A stretch of 10,291 bases of DNA from NCBI GenBank assembly GCA_031267195.1, contig JAIRZO010000081.1, positions 1 to 10,291 of the forward strand. Direction: 5' to 3'. This document shows, one piece after another, positions 8-10,180 of the stretch. Each line of letters opens with the position of its first letter. Within the stretch, counting starts at the first letter, position 1. The notes under the pieces are model-generated. The model saw only the letters and a list, made by a program, of their open reading frames with translations, had not been told where the DNA came from and did not search any database. The DNA comes from Holosporaceae bacterium. GTDB lineage: Bacteria; Pseudomonadota; Alphaproteobacteria; UBA3830. Position numbers and translations under genes: made by a program.

Positions 8-748
8 TCACATCCGACAAGCTCCCGCCTCCGCTGGGACGTTATGATTTATTTTGTTGTTATTATTGTTTAATGTAGCCAGAATGCCCGATGATATTTT
101 TTCATCTTTATCCTTGCTACCGCGTGATGAGCCAAATTCAAAGCTATAAGCATCCTTAAGGCAGGAGCCAAATATGCCGGATACAGTAGATATAATTCCC
201 ACAACTTCTCCTGGCAATTCACCTTGATAGAGAGAAAGTATCAACATGCATATGATTAATCCGACAACGGCTCCGACAATCATAATATTTAATCTCCTGT
301 TGCGGCTGTAAGCATTGATGGTGTGAACGGTGTTGGGATTGCTGAATACATTGCTGCGGTTTGTTGTTTCGCCACCGGCTTCTCCGTGGGAGGTATTATT
401 TTTTTTATAATTTTCTCCATCATTCCCATTTTTTTTGTGACTTTCTGACAATTTTTCTTGCGCCAGCGGAGGCTTGGGATTTAACACAATTCGCTGAACA
501 TTTCCTATTCCTGTGGAAATGGTTGTGATGGATTGCTCTGTTTCTTCATCAAAGGCTGATTTTTCATAAGAATCTACAATAGTATCATCATGCGATGATG
601 ATACTGGTATCTGCACTGCAGCCTGTCCATCCTGCTCTGCAGTTGATGAAGGCGACAGTGATTTTTCTGCTTCCTGCAGCACATTCACCATTTCATTCTT
701 CAGAGTATTGATGGAGTGCAGTACTATTTTTTCCAAGAAATTTTTCAT
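8..748 (-). CDS. Putative phage membrane protein, possible holin, downstream of the endolysin
   Basis: A complete 246-residue gene, last in the minus-strand phage-type cassette. The first ~150 residues are hydrophilic, rich in Ser, Glu, Asn and Lys, and look disordered. A strong membrane segment follows at about residues 154-174 (IMIVGAVVGLIICMLILSLY), then a weaker hydrophobic stretch (VVGIISTVSGIFGSCL) and a polar tail containing FGSSRGSKDKDE. A short hydrophobic hairpin followed by an FGSS.GS..K tail is a pattern I associate with small phage holin-like proteins; this is recall, not a search result. The start is supported by an AAAGGA ribosome-binding site 9 bases upstream, and only 18 bases separate it from the stop of the hydrolase gene, which suggests translational coupling. 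Endolysin-holin adjacency supports a lysis role. The long hydrophilic N-terminal half is unusual for a holin, so a spanin, anchor or unrelated membrane protein remains possible. Confidence 0.55.
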   Translation of the reverse strand: MKNFLEKIVLHSINTLKNEMVNVLQEAEKSLSPSSTAEQDGQAAVQIPVSSSHDDTIVDSYEKSAFDEETEQSITTISTGIGNVQRIVLNPKPPLAQEKLSESHKKNGNDGENYKKNNTSHGEAGGETTNRSNVFSNPNTVHTINAYSRNRRLNIMIVGAVVGLIICMLILSLYQGELPGEVVGIISTVSGIFGSCLKDAYSFEFGSSRGSKDKDEKISSGILATLNNNNNKINHNVPAEAGACRM

Positions 749-766
749 TTTGTTTTTTCCTTTCGC

Positions 767-1183
767 TTAATTTTTGAGTACATAAAAATAATGGGATCCG
801 AAAATTCTTCGAGGAATCAAATAAACGGCCCAGTAGGGTTTGATGCTGCGTTCGTGATAGTGATCACAGCCATCTGTCAAATCTGGCCATCTTTCGCACA
901 AAACATTTTCTGCAGTTTCCAGACATTTACCAAAAATATGAGCATCTTCCTGGGAGATGTGCATTATTCTTCTGTAGTTGGGATCACTTCTGTTCCAGCA
1001 GGAGAATTGATACGGAGCGGTGCAAACATCGGCTATAGAATTGGCGAAACTTTTCTTTTTTCTGTTCATAACAACGTTAGCTACGGCTATTAGTGATACC
1101 AAACCGAACTTGCTCAGCTCTCCGCGAGCTTCGCCATAGACGGTTCTTGCCAATGTCTGCAGGTCATTTTGTGAGTAATTCAT
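767..1183 (-). CDS. SleB-type cell wall hydrolase (phage endolysin)
   Basis: A 138-residue protein matching the SleB/Hydrolase_2 family of peptidoglycan-cleaving enzymes (lytic transglycosylase-like). The N-terminal signature LARTVYGEARGE (residues 11-22) carries the expected catalytic glutamate, E18, in the YxEAR context. Further family landmarks follow in order: VANVVMNR, then YQFSCWN, and a C-terminal HYHERSIKPYWA block corresponding to the family's YH...P.W motif. The length fits the bare catalytic domain with no added cell-wall-binding domain. No signal peptide is apparent, so it would need a holin or similar to reach the periplasm; the next gene, 18 bases away, is a membrane protein. 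The start has an AAAAGGA ribosome-binding site about 8 bases upstream. In a phage-type cassette the likely role is host lysis; a host spore-type SleB role is unlikely given the neighbours. Confidence 0.85.
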   Translation of the reverse strand: MNYSQNDLQTLARTVYGEARGELSKFGLVSLIAVANVVMNRKKKSFANSIADVCTAPYQFSCWNRSDPNYRRIMHISQEDAHIFGKCLETAENVLCERWPDLTDGCDHYHERSIKPYWAVYLIPRRIFGSHYFYVLKN

Positions 1184-1255
1184 GGAGATTATTCCTTTTC
1201 AGATTTTTTGCGGGAGAAAATGTTTTTTTGGTGATTAAAACGAATGAATCAGAAA

Positions 1256-2206
1256 CTAATCCAGAGCAATGAAGTTGATCCTTATCAGATTAGTGCCCGG
1301 AGTGTGGATCAAGCCGCTGCTTCCGTAGGTGCGGCTCCTGCCAGAACAATTGTTGGTGAGTTGTATTTTACAACCACCATTTTTTAACTCCTCATAGAGC
1401 GTCATTTTTTGCGAAATGGTAAATGTATGCATAAAAATTGCCCTGGCGTCATTTAGCATATTAACTTTGCTATCGGGATCGATACCTAATTTTTTTAGAC
1501 CACTCAATTTTGATAGGTATATGCAGGAAGCACGACCCTCGGCTGTGGAATGAAAAACGCAGGATTCCATGTTCTGGGGATGAGTTCCATATTCGTAAAA
1601 ACCTCCGTAGGCATAGAAATGATATGGAGCTCGCCCGGAAATTCCTTCCATTTGTAAAAATTTACTGGCTCCACTTCCTCTGGTGTATTTCTCAATGATA
1701 TCTCCAGATTCTGCGGTGGGAAATTTTTTTTCGAACAGCACCACTTTTTTGTTGCGGGAAGAATCAGCTATAACCGAGGCTGTATTGCTCGGCACAAAAA
1801 AGTATTCACCAAAAAACTCGTCCATGAAGGACTGACTTTGTCCATCGCAAAAATATTCTCCGGTTTTTTCAAAAAGAATAAGGATTTTGGAGCAAAATAA
1901 TCTGTTGTTTTTAAAGGTTGAGCAGGAATCAAAATGAGGATTTTCGTAGATGCTATTTTTCCCGAGGCTAACATTGTCTTCCTGACGGATTAGCACCGTG
2001 TGCTGCTTTATCTTTGCCGGATGCATGCTGGCATCCAAAATGATCGACGTTGGCCATTCTTCATTTAGCTTTATGGGACAAATGCCGCCATCATCTGGCA
2101 TTTCTAACGCAACTGTGGTGACAATATTTTCTTCGGTATCCGGCACATTGCCAAAGTTGCGCAAATATCCGTCCGACAAAAATCGAATACTTCTTACAAT
2201 GGACAT
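1256..2206 (-). CDS. Uncharacterised protein of phage-type cassette
   Basis: A 316-residue protein of the minus-strand cassette, between the tail-like gene (61 bases upstream) and the hydrolase (72 bases downstream). I do not recognise its family. There is no signal peptide or membrane segment. The composition is that of a soluble globular protein with eleven or so cysteines and many aromatic residues (for example GRAPYHFYAYGGFYEYG). The C-terminus reads GRSRTYGSSGLIHTPGTN and then a short hydrophobic beta-like end. The ATG is preceded by GAAAGGAAAAGACA, a reasonable ribosome-binding site. Its position between a tail/baseplate-like gene and the lysis genes suggests a minor tail, tip or receptor-binding component, but this rests only on order. 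Two shorter open frames lie inside it on the same strand and are shadows. Confidence 0.8.
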   Translation of the reverse strand: MSIVRSIRFLSDGYLRNFGNVPDTEENIVTTVALEMPDDGGICPIKLNEEWPTSIILDASMHPAKIKQHTVLIRQEDNVSLGKNSIYENPHFDSCSTFKNNRLFCSKILILFEKTGEYFCDGQSQSFMDEFFGEYFFVPSNTASVIADSSRNKKVVLFEKKFPTAESGDIIEKYTRGSGASKFLQMEGISGRAPYHFYAYGGFYEYGTHPQNMESCVFHSTAEGRASCIYLSKLSGLKKLGIDPDSKVNMLNDARAIFMHTFTISQKMTLYEELKNGGCKIQLTNNCSGRSRTYGSSGLIHTPGTNLIRINFIALD

Positions 2207-2267
2207 TGTCTTTTCCTTTCAAAAATAAAAAATGATTCGCCAATTTTTTTTTGATATTTTTCAAAAT

Positions 2268-4091
2268 TTATTGTGTGGGGAGAGAGAACTCCGGTAGATC
2301 AATTTCCCTTACGATTTCCCGTGTTGTGCTAAAGGGATGTAGTGTAACCTTGATTTTCGTTGCATGGACTTTCAGCTGATTCTTCAGTTCATTCACGGAC
2401 TTTGCTTCCTGCTGCGCCAGCATATCCTCCTGTTCTTCTGGAGAATTTGTAATTTTGACATCGGTGACAATATCTTCCATTGCCAGCTCAGTTTCTTCCG
2501 GCATAATTTCCAAAGCATTCATATAGTTGTTCAGCAGGGCAGGCCAATTATCGTTAGACTCCACTAGACAGCAGGCAATGGAAACATTCAAAATCTTTCC
2601 TGTTGCGTTAGCCTCCAGATTAGTTTTTGTGATTTTTCCAGAAATTTTACCCATCTGGAATCTATTATCTTCAACGGTAATTTGATCGTTTATGCTAGCA
2701 AACCAAAAGGCGCTTGCATCAACGCTGAAGCTGACCTCGATATATCTGGATGAATAGTTTATCAGGGCAATGGCTTTTTGGATTGCGTATCTAATGGCAT
2801 TTTTACCGCGGTCGGTCGCAAAAAACGAACTTTTGGAATCGTTCGACAGGGCATCCGGAATTTTTTCCTTTGATTTCCATTTGTTTTCATCAAATTCTTC
2901 CTGCGACAGGTGAGTCAGCGTGCATTCCCACACGAAATCATTCCGGATTACCTTCATGCCCATCTCATAATGCATATAGCATTGCCAAAAGGGATACTGT
3001 TTTGCCAGTTGAATGCGATTTAACTGTAAATGCAGTGTTTTGTTACGGCCATGCATCACATGTCCATTGCCGACATTTACCCGAACGATTTCATGACGTT
3101 TTTGGCGATAGTTCCATCCGATCAGCATTTTTCCATGAAAATAAAAGCGGCGAAATTGCACTCTTTTCCTATTCATGGGAACTAAAGTAGATGCAGATGA
3201 GGATGATGCCATCAACGGCGCTTCACCTGTTCCATCACCTATAAAAAATTCCCGAGAAACTGCGGGACATTTTTGCACATAGGTCGCCGTTTGCGGTGGC
3301 ACCATTTCGTTTATTTTACAATAAATGAGATGGTATCCGCTGCGGATGGAAAAACGACAGAGTTTTTCTAGTCCGGATTTTATGTTGGTAAATGAGTTGA
3401 TGTAGTTTGTCTTGAAATTAGACGCAATTATCGGATATAGATCAATATAGCCGTAGATTCGCTGGATCCAGCTGGTTTCCAGTACCACATTCACATTTTT
3501 GTATGGTTCCCGTGCCAGTCTCACTTTCATGGAATTTTGCAGGATTTGGTCACCACTGACGGTTATGTGTTGCTTTCCTTTGACGATATCCGATAGAGAT
3601 AGTGCGCCGGTTCGCATGGACCAATAGAATATTTTTTCGTCATTTTCCAAAAAAATTGTTGGATTGTCGAGGTCTTTGGAAGAAAAAAATAAATCATCGA
3701 ACGGAATATGATGGTCCTGCAGATCATGCATATTTGTCTGCCGATAGCACTGCAGATTGTTTTCTGCAAACATTTTCAGCTGTTCATTGTAGTCGTCCGG
3801 TTCCGCTATTAATTCCAGTTGTACACAGCTGTTGGAGAATCCCACTGGAAATGCCATCAATCTTCCGGAAAATAGCAGATCAACCCGTGGGTCGTCATCG
3901 TTTTGCTGCAGGCCTATTTTTGCATACCGTTTTCGCAGTAATTCTTCAGAATTTTCCGTATAAATCGAGACTTTTGCCGTAGCAAAGCCCCATTCCCGCT
4001 GGTTGATTTTCAGGGAAATCATATCTTCATCTCCACGCCATGATTCTTTTTTTTCGAAGAAAGAATCACTCCAATCAAATAGTAATTTCAT
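2268..4091 (-). CDS. Probable phage tail/baseplate structural protein
   Basis: A 607-residue protein, first gene of the minus-strand cassette. There is no signal peptide or transmembrane segment. The N-terminal ~110 residues are beta-rich and include LLFSGRLMAFPVGFSN followed by LELIAEP, a pattern I associate with tail hub/baseplate-type proteins. The later part (about residues 430-530) contains SFFATDRGKNAIRYAIQKA, then YIEVSFSVDA, then GKISGKITKTNLEANATGK and a V-x-I-A-C strand. A comparable 'SFF.T.RG...' to 'G.I.GK' arrangement occurs in proteins of alphaproteobacterial prophage tail regions that I recall, but no search was run. The last ~80 residues are acidic and predicted helical, then basic. 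The ATG is preceded by TTGGAGAC with about 10 bases spacing. The gene opens the operon, so the upstream head and tail genes expected of a full prophage are absent on this side; the transporter gene diverges instead. Confidence 0.6.
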   Translation of the reverse strand: MKLLFDWSDSFFEKKESWRGDEDMISLKINQREWGFATAKVSIYTENSEELLRKRYAKIGLQQNDDDPRVDLLFSGRLMAFPVGFSNSCVQLELIAEPDDYNEQLKMFAENNLQCYRQTNMHDLQDHHIPFDDLFFSSKDLDNPTIFLENDEKIFYWSMRTGALSLSDIVKGKQHITVSGDQILQNSMKVRLAREPYKNVNVVLETSWIQRIYGYIDLYPIIASNFKTNYINSFTNIKSGLEKLCRFSIRSGYHLIYCKINEMVPPQTATYVQKCPAVSREFFIGDGTGEAPLMASSSSASTLVPMNRKRVQFRRFYFHGKMLIGWNYRQKRHEIVRVNVGNGHVMHGRNKTLHLQLNRIQLAKQYPFWQCYMHYEMGMKVIRNDFVWECTLTHLSQEEFDENKWKSKEKIPDALSNDSKSSFFATDRGKNAIRYAIQKAIALINYSSRYIEVSFSVDASAFWFASINDQITVEDNRFQMGKISGKITKTNLEANATGKILNVSIACCLVESNDNWPALLNNYMNALEIMPEETELAMEDIVTDVKITNSPEEQEDMLAQQEAKSVNELKNQLKVHATKIKVTLHPFSTTREIVREIDLPEFSLPTQ

Positions 4092-5376: not shown

Positions 5377-5835
5377 ATGCAAAAGGTGCCCGCACAGTAT
5401 TGGACATTACAGTATCATTATGTGTGGAAGACGAAGTATTCTTACAAGGTATTAAGTGGCGATATTGCTCTCAGATTGAGAGATTTGCTGAAGGAAGTAT
5501 GTAGCTTGCAGGAAATGACAATTGTGCGCGGAAATATCAGAGCTGATCATGTGCATATTCTTGTAAGAGCTCCAAGCTATCTGTCTCCGGCGAAAATTGC
5601 TCAGTACCTGAAAGGACGTTCGGCACATGCAATGTTAAGGGAGTTTCCCGAGCTTAGAAAAAAATATTGGGGATGTCATTTGTGGGCTAAGGGTTATTTT
5701 TGCAGCACAATTGGGGCAGTTACTGAAGAAACAATAAAAAAGTATATCGAAGACCAAAAAGATGAAGATTCTGTCTTCAAAGTTTGGGACGAAAAGAAGG
5801 ATTTATCCGCATCCGGAGAGCCTTTAGGTACCTAA
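5377..5835 (+). CDS. tnpA: IS200/IS605-family transposase TnpA (Y1 HUH nuclease)
   Basis: A 152-residue Y1 transposase, the usual length for TnpA. It binds single-stranded hairpin ends and cuts and rejoins the strand through a 5'-phosphotyrosine bond. The N-terminal block (YHYVWKTKYSYKVL) is the family's first beta strand and basic segment. The metal-binding HUH motif is present as H58-V-H60 in ADHVHILV. The mid region YLKGRSAHAMLREFPEL is the conserved helix, and the catalytic tyrosine is most likely Y123 in TIKKYIEDQ. All catalytic residues are present and the frame is intact, so it may still be active. Translation signals are weak: no clear Shine-Dalgarno sequence lies before the ATG, which is common in IS200 elements that keep transposase levels low. 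The last ~20 residues (from WDEKKDLSASGE) are poorly conserved in the family. Confidence 0.92.
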   Translation: MQKVPAQYWTLQYHYVWKTKYSYKVLSGDIALRLRDLLKEVCSLQEMTIVRGNIRADHVHILVRAPSYLSPAKIAQYLKGRSAHAMLREFPELRKKYWGCHLWAKGYFCSTIGAVTEETIKKYIEDQKDEDSVFKVWDEKKDLSASGEPLGT

Positions 5836-5998: not shown

Positions 5999-6004
5999 TA
6001 GGAG
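5999..6004 (+). promoter_or_regulatory. Ribosome-binding site that decides the start of the repeat-protein gene
   Basis: TAGGAG lies 8 bases before ATG 6013. A longer open frame begins at ATG 5977 but has no Shine-Dalgarno sequence. Starting at 6013 also yields a canonical signal peptide beginning MKKMLLL. Confidence 0.7.
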
Positions 6005-6012
6005 TTAGAATA

Positions 6013-7686
6013 ATGAAAAAAATGTTATTGTTGTCCTCTGGGGTTGTTTGTTTTGGGATCCTGCCACTACAAGAGATAAGTGGGTTGAATGGACCTGCGC
6101 AGAAAAATCAGGTGATGAACACTAGAATTAGATCTTTGCAGCGTCCGGCTGGTTCTGTACCTCTACAGCGGGTAGCGGATCGGCGACTTATTGAAAAACC
6201 GCGACCTGCTCCTGTTATGGGCTTTGCTGGTAAGCCTCCTGCTGTGGCTGGTTCGATATCTCCGAAAGTCTTCTCAGGGAATAAAGTTGGAAACAACCTG
6301 CAGCCGTCTTTGAGCTATGTGGGAGATTACCCGTTGAGGGGACATACACCTGTTCTTGATTTGGCCGGGTCGGAAAATATGAATCCATCCGGACCAAACT
6401 ACCATCGGCCGTTGGCTGGGGGCTCGTCCTTGGGCAATTGCGGGGCAGAACCCTGTGCGGGGCCGCTGGTGGATTGGTACAAATATGTCGGGGGTTTTGC
6501 ACCTGACACGTCTAACCATCCGGCAACCAGCCGGAAATCCGGGGCGCCGCTGCTGGAGAGCCTGTGTTCACACAGCAACGGCTCTGGGCGTCAGGAGTTA
6601 GACAAACAGACTTCCACACCAGAATCCGGCACCGGGATAGGACTGGGCTGGTCCGGGTACGACTTCGGTTCTGGATTTGCGGAACGTGGAGGCCCGGAGG
6701 CTTCGGGACATGGCCGTGCCCGGCCCGGAGCCGGTGCTGATGTTTGGTCCGGGTACGACTTCGGTTCTGGATTTGGGAGAGGTAAGAGGCAGGAACGTTC
6801 GGGAGATGGCCGTACCCATCCCGAAACCGACATGGATGAAACGAATCAGGTCCAGGTCTTTGGTTATGGTCCTGCCCCGTACGCTCGCCCAGGTAGGCCC
6901 GCCGAGGCAGCCTCGGGGGACAAAGTGCTAAAGAGATTCGAAAATCTGAGGCTTGGATCAATTGGAGAATATCACAACAGATTAGGCTCGGATGTTAATA
7001 CTGGCCTGAGACGTAATGTAGATGCGGTAGGGTATCAACAAGCACTAAACACCACATCGGCCTCAGGTAACCTAAGTCAGCGGAACATACTGCTGAGCAC
7101 GTTCCCGGCTGTGGACTACACACCTCAGTCTTTGGCTCAGCTGACCGAGTCGGCAGAACGAATTAGCTCCGCCTTGGCTATGATACGTGGGGAACTAGAG
7201 GATAGCATCACTGCTGACCTAAGCCCTGGGCAAAGGGTAGGTTACCCCCCGGCAGAAACAACCACCTTGCATCGGACAAGAACTAACCTGGAATCAACTT
7301 TGCATGATTACGGCCACTTACACTGCTTGACCCTTGGTATAAGACTGCAGAGTATACACAACTGGAAATTTCCACCTAGCTCTGGGTCGGTCACAACTTA
7401 TCCGCAAAAGAGGCTGCTCAACAAATTGTACTCGCTCATGGACACCTGCAGCAGCAACGTGGTCTTTATAACATCGCTGTTGGGTGCTAATCTAACACCG
7501 CCGATTGCTACTCTCCAGCCGGTTGTATCAGTTATAGATGAGCTCTGCAACCGGTATTTGGATACCTGCACCCAGCGTGCTGAAGTCACCATACCTGGGA
7601 CCATGGTCCAGAGTAAGGGTTCCACCAGTGCTATTTCGGACGCAAGGACCCCATCTCGGACTCACGGCACTGAAAAAAAAAACTAG
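6013..7686 (+). CDS. Exported repeat-containing protein, N-terminal part; ends at a slippery A-run
   Basis: A 557-residue frame of unknown family. Residues 1-24 form a Sec signal peptide (MKKMLLLSSGVVCFGILPLQ, then EISG); there is no lipobox, so the protein is probably periplasmic, surface-exposed or secreted. Residues ~25-210 are Pro/Gly/Ser-rich and probably extended. Residues 213-276 are two 32-residue tandem repeats beginning WSGYDFGSGF. Residues ~303-520 are less biased and predicted mainly helical, with several cysteines. The frame ends T-E-K-K-N-TAG directly after ten consecutive A. The next frame (open from 7674) is probably its continuation, which would give a product of about 1096 residues. 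Base composition is visibly more GC-rich than in the phage-type cassette, suggesting foreign origin or compositional drift. A secreted effector or adhesin of an intracellular bacterium is a reasonable guess only. The start was chosen for its TAGGAG site and signal peptide. Confidence 0.75.
   Translation: MKKMLLLSSGVVCFGILPLQEISGLNGPAQKNQVMNTRIRSLQRPAGSVPLQRVADRRLIEKPRPAPVMGFAGKPPAVAGSISPKVFSGNKVGNNLQPSLSYVGDYPLRGHTPVLDLAGSENMNPSGPNYHRPLAGGSSLGNCGAEPCAGPLVDWYKYVGGFAPDTSNHPATSRKSGAPLLESLCSHSNGSGRQELDKQTSTPESGTGIGLGWSGYDFGSGFAERGGPEASGHGRARPGAGADVWSGYDFGSGFGRGKRQERSGDGRTHPETDMDETNQVQVFGYGPAPYARPGRPAEAASGDKVLKRFENLRLGSIGEYHNRLGSDVNTGLRRNVDAVGYQQALNTTSASGNLSQRNILLSTFPAVDYTPQSLAQLTESAERISSALAMIRGELEDSITADLSPGQRVGYPPAETTTLHRTRTNLESTLHDYGHLHCLTLGIRLQSIHNWKFPPSSGSVTTYPQKRLLNKLYSLMDTCSSNVVFITSLLGANLTPPIATLQPVVSVIDELCNRYLDTCTQRAEVTIPGTMVQSKGSTSAISDARTPSRTHGTEKKN
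6649..6840 (+). repeat. Two tandem 96-bp repeats (32 residues each)
   Basis: Unit 1 is 6649-6744 and unit 2 is 6745-6840. The first 31 bases of each (6649-6679 and 6745-6775) are identical and encode WSGYDFGSGF. The remainder is diverged but aligns without gaps, including TTCGGGA-A/G-ATGGCCGT at 6702 and 6798. The protein units end in a charged, Gly/Arg-rich stretch. The pattern is that of an in-frame duplication inside a coding region, with the start of the unit kept and the tail free to vary. Confidence 0.9.
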
Positions 7687-7691
7687 CACTG
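7667..7691 (+). promoter_or_regulatory. Slippery poly(A) site joining the two frames of the repeat protein
   Basis: Ten A (7673-7682) are followed by C-TAG. Read in the upstream frame the codons are GAA AAA AAA AAC TAG, so the last bases form A AAA AAC, a classic -1 slippery heptamer, placed immediately before the stop. A -1 step, or one added A in DNA or RNA, gives T-E-K-K-K-L-A-L-L-E-R-N and continues open to 9302. The sequence GCACTG flanks the run on both sides (7667-7672 and 7686-7691). No strong downstream stimulatory stem is visible by eye. Ten-A runs are known sites of RNA polymerase slippage in AT-rich endosymbionts and of replication slippage in phase-variable genes; which applies here is not decided by sequence alone. 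Confidence 0.6.
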
Positions 7692-7727
7692 CTTGAGCGC
7701 AACTGTACCTCCTCGATACAATTACCA

Positions 7728-7832
7728 CCACCTATTCCTATCACGGATTTCTTGAAGAAAGATGACGGTGACATTGGACTGGGCGAGGGCGCGCATAGTA
7801 ATGCTGGTTCGAGGCGAAGCGGTCCCTCGCCG
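7728..7832 (+). repeat. DFL block, copy 1, spanning the nominal TTG start
   Basis: The translation PPIPITDFLKKDDG, followed by GSR and SPF landmarks, aligns without gaps with copy 2 at 9009-9113. Both copies have Asp-Phe-Leu exactly 28 codons before the S-P codon (gat at 7746 and ccg at 7830, versus gat at 9027 and ccg at 9111). The matching PP residues at 7728-7733 lie upstream of the TTG at 7752, so this upstream DNA is coding in the second frame. Confidence 0.75.
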
Positions 7833-9302
7833 TTTGTCAGTACTAGTGATTATAGACCCTCAAGCGTGGTAACGACCAAACCTATCTTTGGGGGGTTTTC
7901 CTCGCGCAAACCTGAGGTTGACCTTCGCGGGACCGGGTACCCTGACCTTAGTTCTGATCATGGAAGAAGCAGCTCCTCACCGTTTGTTAGTACTAGCGTC
8001 TACAAACCTTCGAACGTGGTGGAGAACAATCCTGGCTTTGGCGGGTTTTCCTCGCACCAAGCTGGTGATAACCTTAGCCGGACCAAGTACACTGCCCTTA
8101 GTTCTGATCATGGAAGAAGCAGCTCCTCGCCGTTTGTTAGTGGCAGTTTTTTCGAGCGCTCTGGATGGGGACAAGCACCGCCTGATAATAAGGCGGATCG
8201 CTTTTTCCCAGTTGTGAATTACCCACCCCAGCCCGGGAGCAAACGCACTGATACTCGTCCTGGGCGGAACAGTCACTCGCCATTTGTTAGTGAGAATTCA
8301 GGTAGAACTGCTTCTGGTAACGGGAGGGAAAGTAAAAAGATCGACTCTGGCCGGGGGAGCTTGACCTCGGTTGAGCTCCTCGGTAGCTGCGTGCTGCCAT
8401 CCATACCAGCTGCTTTTACCGGGGCTTGCTTGACGGAACCTTCGTATGATCTTGCACTGACTGATAGAGCACACAATAGCACTTGTTCTGGGCCAGGCAG
8501 CCACTCGCTGTTTGTTAATTTTGGTAATCTCGGGCGGTCTGACCAGTCAATAACACTGCCTGCTTGTATGACGGATTCCTCGGTCGCGTCTACGGATAAA
8601 CTTCAGCGGACCGGACTCATGTACAGTACTGCTGACTCTAGGCCCAGCAGCCACTCGCCCTTGGTTAGTGAGGCTCCTGGTGAACCTGCTGGTAAAACAA
8701 AGTACCAGAATCAGGATCACCGCTCTAGAACCGGACAGAGGAACTCAGCTGAGCGCCACATTCGCCACCCAGCGACCATCACATCGCCTGATTTTAGCAA
8801 GAGTTCCTTGCACCGTACTAAGGATACTTTTCAGGCGCCTCTTCGCAACTCCGGTAGACCTCGTGCTGCTATGACAAGACGGTGGCAGTGTGTTGATGGG
8901 GATCATGATGGAACTACTTTTGGTCAGGGGACACGATACGGGGAGAACGACTCTCAATTGAGCTTGGACTCGGCTGATGACGGCTGTAGCTCCTCAGGAG
9001 CATCAAAACCACCTGTTTCTATGGAGGATTTCTTGGAGAAAGATAAAGGTAGCAATGACCAGACCGGGAGCAGACGCACTAGTATTGGTTCGAGGGGTAG
9101 CAGCCACTCGCCGTCACTTGATAAAGCTGAGCTTTTCTCATTCGCACCTGGGAATTCTCTTCACACACCTGAGAGCAGACACACTATTACTGGCTCTGAC
9201 AGAATCAGTCACTCGCAGTCTGGTGATAGTACTGCTGGAGAGGACAAAAAGTTGCCTCAGGTTGATGAGTTCATTGCTAGCCTCCACAAAATTGGCAAGT
9301 AG
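7752..9302 (+). CDS. Ser/Gly-rich repeat protein, probable C-terminal part of the preceding gene
   Basis: A 516-residue frame from a nominal TTG; the open frame actually extends back to 7674, just after a TGA at 7671. I do not think the TTG is a true start: there is no Shine-Dalgarno sequence, no ATG or GTG nearby, and the block that straddles the TTG is a recognisable internal repeat. The sequence is rich in Ser, Gly, Arg, Thr and Asp and probably disordered. Its hallmark is S-x-S-P-F-V-S, with the Pro codon at 7830, 7980, 8130 and 8280, then degenerate copies at 8508, 8658, 9111 and 9216. The last residues, LPQVDEFIASLHKIGK, form a short helix-like end. No membrane segment or known domain is seen. 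The most likely role is the extended tail of an exported protein; such tails can be surface filaments, host-facing effector regions or phosphorylation targets, but none of this is shown. A strong terminator follows 32 bases after the stop. Confidence 0.7.
   Translation: MKKDDGDIGLGEGAHSNAGSRRSGPSPFVSTSDYRPSSVVTTKPIFGGFSSRKPEVDLRGTGYPDLSSDHGRSSSSPFVSTSVYKPSNVVENNPGFGGFSSHQAGDNLSRTKYTALSSDHGRSSSSPFVSGSFFERSGWGQAPPDNKADRFFPVVNYPPQPGSKRTDTRPGRNSHSPFVSENSGRTASGNGRESKKIDSGRGSLTSVELLGSCVLPSIPAAFTGACLTEPSYDLALTDRAHNSTCSGPGSHSLFVNFGNLGRSDQSITLPACMTDSSVASTDKLQRTGLMYSTADSRPSSHSPLVSEAPGEPAGKTKYQNQDHRSRTGQRNSAERHIRHPATITSPDFSKSSLHRTKDTFQAPLRNSGRPRAAMTRRWQCVDGDHDGTTFGQGTRYGENDSQLSLDSADDGCSSSGASKPPVSMEDFLEKDKGSNDQTGSRRTSIGSRGSSHSPSLDKAELFSFAPGNSLHTPESRHTITGSDRISHSQSGDSTAGEDKKLPQVDEFIASLHKIGK
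7830..8279 (+). repeat. Array of 150-bp (50-residue) tandem repeats
   Basis: Three exact 150-bp periods run between the S-P-F-V-S motifs at 7830, 7980, 8130 and 8280. The first two units share the order STS-x-Y-[RK]PS-x-VV, FGGFSS, then LSSDHGR. The unit junctions at 7946-7991 and 8096-8141 match at 45 of 46 bases, pointing to recent duplication or gene conversion. The third unit is diverged in between but keeps the period. The same 150-bp spacing recurs between 8508 and 8658 farther on. Confidence 0.9.
9009..9113 (+). repeat. DFL block, copy 2
   Basis: PPVSMEDFLEKDKG followed by GSRRT, GSRGS and SHSPS is the second copy of the block at 7728-7832, offset by exactly 1281 bases (427 codons). 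This suggests a larger duplicated module, with the DFL segment opening each series of S-P motifs. Confidence 0.75.
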
Positions 9303-9334
9303 TTGCATGTCTAACCATGGAACATTGATACACG

Positions 9335-9368
9335 GGGCGCCCAGACTATGGGATGCCCTGCGTTTTTT
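9335..9368 (+). terminator. Rho-independent terminator after the repeat-protein gene
   Basis: The stem GGGC-(G)-CCCA pairs across a GACTA loop with TGGG-(AT)-GCCC, giving eight GC-rich pairs around one small internal loop. TGCG and six T (9363-9368) follow. It begins 32 bases after the TAG of the second frame. No comparable structure lies between the two frames at 7671-7752, which fits a single transcript covering both. The following stretch to 9540 holds no gene that I can support. Confidence 0.75.
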
Positions 9369-9540
9369 GTGCCAAAATAGGTATTCGATGGTAATTTTGG
9401 GACATGTACTTGTCGGACAACAGGTTTCTGTATCGGTACTATTTGCTGTGGTTTGGTGCAAATAACGGAATTCTGAAGTCGTTCGGTCTTAGGAAAGTGC
9501 GACCTGGAATATCATAGATATTCTTGCGCATCATTATCGC

Positions 9541-10180
9541 TCACGCAGCTTGCTTGCTGGGCCTATCGCCAAAAAGGCTCAGCAATTGCTGGCAGGTTAT
9601 ACCCCAGTTGTGTACTTTTGTCATCTATTTTCTCTCAAACCTGCGAACTCCAGCATAAAGGCTCTTAGACAACGCCGGAGACCTCCTTCAAGTCCTTGTA
9701 GGACACATGTTTCACGGAATTGCGGATCTGATGAACAATGCATTTTTGATGATCCGATTGTGGAAAACAACTCTTGATTGCCTCGTCCAATCCCCTCAAA
9801 TTGTCGGTGCAAAAAATCAGAACCCGCCGAACTCCGCGACTTTTCAGGTCGTTCATCATCGAAAGCCAATATTTTGCAGATTCTGCTCCTCCAATGGGAA
9901 AGCTCAATACCTTTTTCTGTCCCTCCATTTCAACGCCAACACAACCTTAGGCTGTTACTTTTTGCATAATTCCGTCTTTTTTGGCTTTGAACGCCATACC
10001 ATATATACAGACTTCAACGGCCTCAATTGCCACTCCTTGATCTCACCCAAAACTCGATTGGTAACATTGGACACAACCTCCGCAGAGACCTCAAATCCAT
10101 ATAATTCCTTGATATTTTCGGATATGTCCCGGGTACTCATCCCGCAACCATAGAGAGATTATTTTGTCTTCAATCCCTAG
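9541..10180 (-). pseudogene. Decayed IS256-family transposase, 5' end missing
   Basis: IS256/mutator-type transposase remnants lie in order on the minus strand. DKIISLYGCGMSTRDISENI with ELYGFEVS and KEWQLRPLKSVY comes first (from about 10175). AFKAKKDGIMQKVTA follows, then EMEGQKKVLSFPIGGAESAKYWL, CTDNLRGLDEAI and the signature HQKCIVHQIRNSVKHVSYKD (to about 9670). Next come KSLYAG and HNWGIT..QQLLSLFGDR, ending at a TGA at 9541. The frame is broken at least three times: near 10160 (apparently a lost CT), near 9990 (where the first catalytic Asp of the DDE triad should lie and is missing) and near 9675. In-frame stops occur at 9947-9949 and near 9620. About 50 residues before the C-terminus are also missing. 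It cannot make active transposase. The first ~100 residues are absent because the sequence changes at a CTAG at 10177-10180. Confidence 0.85.

Follow-up and report, generated by a model that had tools for sequence, protein, structure and literature searches.

The window analysed here, a stretch of 10,291 nucleotides (nt) from contig JAIRZO010000081.1 of Holosporaceae bacterium, carries two long open reading frames on its forward strand, referred to below as A and B, which meet at a run of ten A's (A10). The feature is real, and A and B together most likely specify one apparently exported repeat protein made in two lengths by way of A10. Such a protein would most likely be secreted or displayed on the surface, with a tail that is optional and probably disordered. 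As to mechanism, we tentatively favour slippage of RNA polymerase at the tract, to which we give close to an even chance, with a single gene thereby giving rise to both forms. Transcription would begin upstream of 6013 and end at the terminator past 9302, RNA polymerase slipping on the ten A:T pairs in part of the transcripts; where tract length is suitably altered ribosomes would pass from frame A into frame B and produce a protein of ~1,100 residues, and on unaltered messages they would stop at the TAG just past the tract and release the 557-residue form. Ribosomes slipping by -1 at this A-run may contribute as well. Export, slippage in this organism, the two products and any function are what we infer from the arrangement described below.

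Two frames that meet at an A-run

The features of the A/B gene, all on the + strand, are as follows, with the basis of each in brackets.

6000-6004, +, Shine-Dalgarno (SD) sequence AGGAG for frame A (sequence; SD test)
6013-7686, +, frame A, 557 amino acids, N-terminus signal-peptide-like by eye, middle rich in Gly, Pro and Ser (sequence)
6649-6829, +, two 85-nt in-frame repeats of frame A, spacing 96 nt (repeat comparison)
7671-7673, +, TGA closing frame B upstream, its A being base 1 of the tract (sequence)
7673-7682, +, A10 tract, the frame junction (sequence)
7674-7683, +, overlapping in-frame slippery heptamers A AAA AAA (7674-7680) and A AAA AAC (7677-7683) (sequence)
7674-9302, +, frame B, 542 codons in the -1 frame, rich in Ser, Gly, Pro and Arg, with SSPFVS-like repeats (sequence, repeats, shuffles)
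7684-7686, +, TAG, the frame A stop directly after AAC (sequence)
7703-7769, +, copy 1 of an in-frame 67-nt repeat, beginning 17 nt past the TAG and spanning a putative TTG start (repeat comparison)
7815-8114, +, two 150-nt tandem repeats of frame B (repeat comparison)
8984-9050, +, copy 2 of the 67-nt repeat, deep within frame B and in the same frame (repeat comparison)
9333-9368, +, intrinsic terminator, a GC-rich hairpin followed by T6 (fold and sequence; absent from the list of a simple scanner)

Frame A starts at the ATG at 6013 with what was called by eye as a signal peptide, MKKMLLLSSGVVCFGILPLQEISG, and ends GAA AAA AAA AAC TAG (7672-7686), just as a first-pass annotation of this DNA had described; a single-sequence structure model of frame A had a mean pLDDT (predicted local distance difference test score) of 36 and was unusable. 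The context of the tract is GCACTG-A10-CTAGCACTG, so that its first A doubles as the last base of CTGA. Past the TGA the -1 register opens and runs without a stop until the TAG at 9300-9302, in agreement with the earlier statement that it stays open for more than 530 codons. The overlap between the two frames is only 13 nt (7674-7686), and nine of the ten A's lie in it.

Both frames are far beyond chance: each half was shuffled 300 times with its dinucleotide composition kept, and across the three + frames no stretch stayed open for more than 248 codons in the A half or 216 in the B half. A run of ten A's appeared in 8 of 2000 shuffles of 6013-9302, and A10 is the longest homopolymer in the A/B gene, standing where the frame breaks. 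Frame A has only 10 stops in its next 537 codons, so that a stop immediately after the tract would be met by chance in ~2% of cases, and the comparable figure for the B-frame stop at the start of the tract is ~4.5% (25 of 553), both being post hoc estimates. That the tract has a stop next to it at either end speaks, again post hoc, somewhat more for a junction under selection than for a random break.

Frames A and B as probable parts of one gene

The proposal that A and B probably belong to a single gene joined at the A-run finds support in the geometry of the frames: the minimal overlap at the tract, the in-frame 67-nt repeat, the lack of an early start for B, the atypical G+C (GC) content common to both frames and a real-looking terminator after B. 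The two copies of the repeat (7703-7769 and 8984-9050) are identical at 50 of 67 positions and lie in the same frame at a spacing of 1281 = 3 x 427. Their comparison scored 24.5 against a maximum of 11.5 in 200 shuffles, and the part upstream of the TTG at 7752 scored 14.0 against no more than 11 (again 200 shuffles); at the protein level CTSSIQLPPPIPITDFLKKDDG aligns with CSSSGASKPPVSMEDFLEKDKG. As copy 1 begins at 7703, only 17 nt past the TAG, B-type sequence is already present before TTG 7752, the only ordinary start. Between the tract and 7752 the B frame has no ATG, GTG or TTG, and a CTG is present at 7689. Repeat spacings of 450, 228, 150, 453, 105, 831, 378 and 1281, which cover five repeat families wholly within B and the 67-nt pair, are all multiples of three, these values not all being independent. 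The GC content of A is 53% and that of B 52%, both above the maximum of 49% among 67 sampled open reading frames (ORFs; mean 43%), and that of the genome is 41% (20 contigs sampled).

In keeping with the view that frame B lacks a ribosome-binding site and a convincing start, there is no SD 4-mer before TTG 7752 and no earlier start of the usual kinds, but the missing SD is weak evidence, because only 23 of 63 sampled ATG ORFs carry such a 4-mer (random places, 10%). The simple scanner reported no + strand terminator-like site between A and B, in line with the earlier annotation; its + strand sites within B are at 8129, 8178 and 8494, with a regional count of 5 against 4.2 by chance. The terminator that had been placed after B is likewise there, its hairpin (9333-9360) having 11 pairs and a one-base bulge, with T6 at 9363-9368 and a z of -2.2 for 9303-9400. 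At 7700-7686 on the minus strand there is a weak terminator-like site whose T tail is the complement of the A-run, and such sites are at chance level regionally.

Two further matches were set aside. A 15-nt match in the A frame at the junction (7316-7330 with 7682-7696) had a P of 0.03 in 200 shuffles and is taken as chance, and unfiltered BLASTP of A against B gave a best E of 0.002, which looks like composition in common and was not used.

Reliability of the tract in its own genome

The source genome comprises 571,271 bases in 100 contigs and is 55.8% complete. Nine A or T runs of at least 10 are present in the assembly: six are in frame within ORFs, one looks intergenic, one lies at a contig end and one is that of A/B, which is the only one to break a frame. 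The six in-frame tracts are in topA (A11), glmU (A11), an NlpD-like LysM/M23 protein (A10), a cpoB-like gene (A10), a peptidyl-prolyl isomerase (PPIase)-like exported protein (A13) and a lipoprotein-like protein of 545 residues (A10), the cpoB name, the export and the lipoprotein character in the last three being judged by eye. In three of these genes Pfam domains span or flank the tract, with Toprim (14-125) spanning it at codon 109 of TopA, NTP_transf_3 (15-161) spanning it at codon 107 of GlmU, and LysM and M23 flanking it in the NlpD-like protein. Homopolymer error would show in similar tracts also breaking frame, and all six of the other ORF-internal tracts of this length are in frame.

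Amongst A9 tracts of the same genome, 30 of 33 were examined, of which 14 are in frame within ORFs (at least 60 open codons on each side) and three were flagged as broken and then set aside by eye. One of these, in a pair of topA and a gene that by eye is rimI-like (C2, ~6840-6860), is a normal overlap in which the ATG of the second gene falls within the end of topA; at another (L084) there is no gene, and for the third (L058) the flag is on the antisense strand, the tract being in frame on the other. Given the six in-frame A10-A13 tracts and the in-frame A9 tracts, the assembly handles long A-runs well, though an isolated error is still conceivable.

Ribosomal signals at the junction

The first-pass annotation had laid stress on a canonical A AAA AAC heptamer before the stop as a site for ribosomal -1 shifting. 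The heptamer is indeed present at 7677-7683, and both it and A AAA AAA, to which that annotation did not refer, fit the in-frame X XXY YYZ pattern of programmed -1 sites. The usual distance of a stimulatory SD-like sequence from such a heptamer is roughly 10 nt. No such stimulator was found in 7650-7676, the closest word being AAGGA at 7644-7648, 25-28 nt upstream of the heptamers, and no downstream stimulatory structure was found in 7687-7760, where 157 of 200 shuffles fold as well or better (z +0.82). Furthermore, in E. coli A_AAA_AAC and A_AAA_AAA are much less shift-prone than A_AAA_AAG, according to passages of PMC5009743. The ribosomal emphasis is therefore weaker than proposed, and a classical dnaX-type signal has been down-weighted. 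A10 does have the length of at least nine A or T at a frame junction that marks slippage genes of the tssM1 kind, and it better suits RNA-polymerase slippage or replication slippage than ribosomal -1 shifting.

Similar tracts in the genus

Across 11 genomes of the genus there are 75 tracts of at least ten A's, all of which were classified: 25 are in frame within ORFs, four were flagged as broken and 46 are neither. The number of such tracts per genome ranges from 1 to 18, with strong differences between species. The four flagged tracts are that of the A/B window, one in the sister species G008 (C20:24710-24719), one in G005 (L135:2243) and one in G001 (L172), at the last of which no gene could be seen by eye.

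The tract of the sister species, an A10 on the minus strand, lies in an ORF of 513 amino acids with a strong SD, a signal-peptide-like start MKKKLLHVFTGTLFLLGNDAYG and a charged low-complexity body. The ORF stops about six codons after the tract, the -1 frame has a TAA directly at the tract and is then open for 263 codons, and the direction of the step (-1) is the same as in A/B. Nothing in the other 10 genomes of the genus matches its second part. In G005 it is rmuC that is frame-broken, at an A11 (C96; L135:2243-2253) and in the opposite direction to A/B, with the RmuC Pfam family matched at E 1.7e-99 after the tract and the upstream part recognised by eye. Two tracts recur between species, G008 having A10 in topA and A12 in the PPIase-like gene. 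Amongst the A9 tracts of G008, 30 of 68 were examined, of which 11 are in frame and one was flagged (L202), which may be a normal ATGA stop/start overlap.

It is tempting to generalise that in this genus the large exported low-complexity proteins, newly arisen in every species, have A10 slip sites midway along their genes that yield a mixture of short and long-tailed forms. The lineage would then tolerate steady RNA-polymerase slippage (tracts of A10-A13 occur even within topA and glmU) and exploit it for variation in its outward-facing proteins; we regard this wider proposal as unlikely.

Weighing of the explanations

Several results weigh against one gene with two forms made by RNA-polymerase slippage. 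The ratio of nonsynonymous to synonymous changes (dN/dS) is an indecisive 0.58-0.63 between the B repeats in the B frame, whereas for the two repeats of frame A, compared in their own frame, it is an adverse 1.98. Amino-acid identity is above a neutral null in only one of six B repeat pairs, and for the 67-nt junction repeat one off-frame outperforms the B frame (P 0.027). Comparison of relative synonymous codon usage gave 0.25 for A with B, 0.14 for B with the genome and 0.36 for A with B shifted by one, so that the B frame is not singled out. Because these tests of codon usage and of selection on repeats fail to favour frame B, the case for one gene is placed on frame geometry and not on selection. 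Searches with A and with B, each covering 99 other genomes (10 genus-mates included), gave no homologs, and in the protein collection only A itself was matched, 7,990 and 7,991 candidates with most words in common being scored. In the second part of the sister-species gene an SD-like AAGGAG stands 12 nt ahead of a TTG, and separate initiation is therefore possible there. Finally, E. coli RNA polymerase showed little or undetectable slipping on the poly(A) runs tested, as given in passages of PMC6260861.

Replication slippage and transcriptional slippage are, as processes at this tract, equally possible and may coexist. A switch by replication slippage would have the length of the A-run vary among cells, giving long or short protein (phase variation), with the assembly having caught the short state. 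The A/B gene looks exported, repeat-rich and lineage-specific, traits typical of switched surface proteins, and prokaryotic poly(A) tracts are hypermutable, that of inlA being ~1000-fold above the average for point mutation according to passages of PMC2831843. The tract is mid-gene, however, so that even 'off' still yields 557 residues; and because housekeeping genes of this genome keep their frame through tracts of equal or greater length (topA A11, glmU A11, PPIase-like A13), tract length alone marks no switch, and this explanation, though second in rank, would seem rather unlikely. It is improbable that the break is an assembly or sequencing error, the true tract keeping one frame of ~1,100 codons: the break does fall in the longest homopolymer of the gene and the genome is a fragmented, incomplete bin, but the six other long ORF-internal tracts keep frame, A/B being the only one broken, and the near 2% coincidence of the stop would then be chance.

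A recent disabling mutation, in which a tract indel has struck a dispensable orphan gene in a mobile neighbourhood and frame B is as yet undecayed, is distinctly improbable. The gene is unmatched in 10 genus-mates and sits between an IS200-type transposase and a Mutator-family fragment, conserved rmuC is likewise broken at an A11 in G005, and in Blochmannia vafer the frame of eight genes is broken within tracts of this sort (in passages of PMC3017870); against this, frame B is stop-free for 542 codons, the tract has a neighbouring stop at either end, and A10 would probably leak some long product regardless. The case for two genes, with A ending at its TAG and B initiating at TTG 7752 or by reinitiation, draws on the 516 codons that this TTG opens, on the lack of an SD 4-mer in 40 of the 63 sampled ORFs too and on a 9-of-12 promoter-like match at 7693-7722, though such matches are at chance level (3 found, 4.1 expected). 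Since the in-frame 67-nt repeat starts 49 nt upstream of that TTG, B alone would be without a signal peptide, and no + strand terminator-like site separates the two, this is very unlikely, and an operon of two genes has been down-weighted.

Related systems

Slippage of RNA polymerase at A10, the mechanism that we tentatively prefer, has precedents, and the kind of system is already known; what stands out is the setting, a rapidly evolving, apparently exported orphan that may have a counterpart in a sister species. Citrobacter rodentium tssM1, in the passages of PMC4256274 devoted to it, is also a long gene with a stop soon after an A-run, a continuation in the frame reached by extra A's, and a short and a long form; its A11 has ~20% transcriptional frameshifting and the two forms are both needed. 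In tssM1 28 nt separate the tract from the stop, in contrast to one base in A/B; homologs show what its full-length protein is and experiments have demonstrated both forms, whereas A/B is an orphan known from its sequence. In Buchnera and Blochmannia (passages of PMC3017870 and PMC5009743) small genomes likewise have long A tracts in genes, a few of these genes being frame-broken in a way that slippage may correct; in vivo, slippage is efficient at runs of nine A or T, and poly(A) slippage corrects 12-50% of transcripts in some frameshifted endosymbiont genes (PMC5009743, in part). The genes concerned are conserved and the genomes very AT-rich, unlike A/B, an apparently exported orphan of 52-53% GC in a genome of 41% GC.

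With -1 ribosomal frameshifting of the dnaX type A/B shares an in-frame A-rich heptamer and a zero-frame stop directly after it, as in some bacterial dnaX (passages of PMC5009743), and differs in having no downstream structure, an SD-like word as far as 25-28 nt upstream, heptamers that are weak in E. coli and a run of ten A's. The poly(A) phase variation of inlA (PMC2831843, in part) resembles it in that the gene contains a long A-run and its product is probably secreted or surface-exposed. The inlA tract is 5'-terminal and 'off' means 8 residues; for A/B, known from one assembly, 'off' would leave 557.

If confirmed, the A/B gene would add exported orphans from an uncultured gut lineage to the proteins that slippage produces in two forms, and it would mean that in metagenome bins such proteins can be split by gene callers, with half of them lost. 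The A11 tracts of topA and glmU in the same genome are built-in yardsticks.

Relatives and genomic neighbourhood

Beyond the genomes and protein collection mentioned above, residues 300-550 of frame A had no relative apart from A in the protein collection at E up to 1, and none was found in genome contigs (A only), viral contigs (A and B) or plasmids (B only), phage records and E. coli genomes lying outside the search. Neither Pfam nor PHROGs gave anything above chance for A or B, with a single Pfam line for B at E 0.087, and the PDB sequences gave no match to either. No paper on the A/B gene or on such sites in the lineage was found in open-licence texts, the only literature covered, which says little about print at large.

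Mobile elements flank the gene on both sides:

5377-5835, IS200-type transposase gene, upstream of A/B
9665-9928, Mutator-family transposase fragment, downstream of A/B

As A/B is unmatched in the 10 genus-mates and lies between these elements, it looks like a species-specific insertion or birth. The host is very probably a gut or rumen alphaproteobacterium.

Further upstream, at 8-4091 on the minus strand, is a block of four genes of 246, 138 (Hydrolase_2), 316 and 607 amino acids. Together with an EamA transporter this block occurs in all six genus-mates for which a long stretch was read, and past EamA three of the genus-mates carry other genes. The block may be part of a gene-transfer-agent or prophage-derived cluster. 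Genes that by eye are portal- and capsid-like lie near it in L087 and L089.

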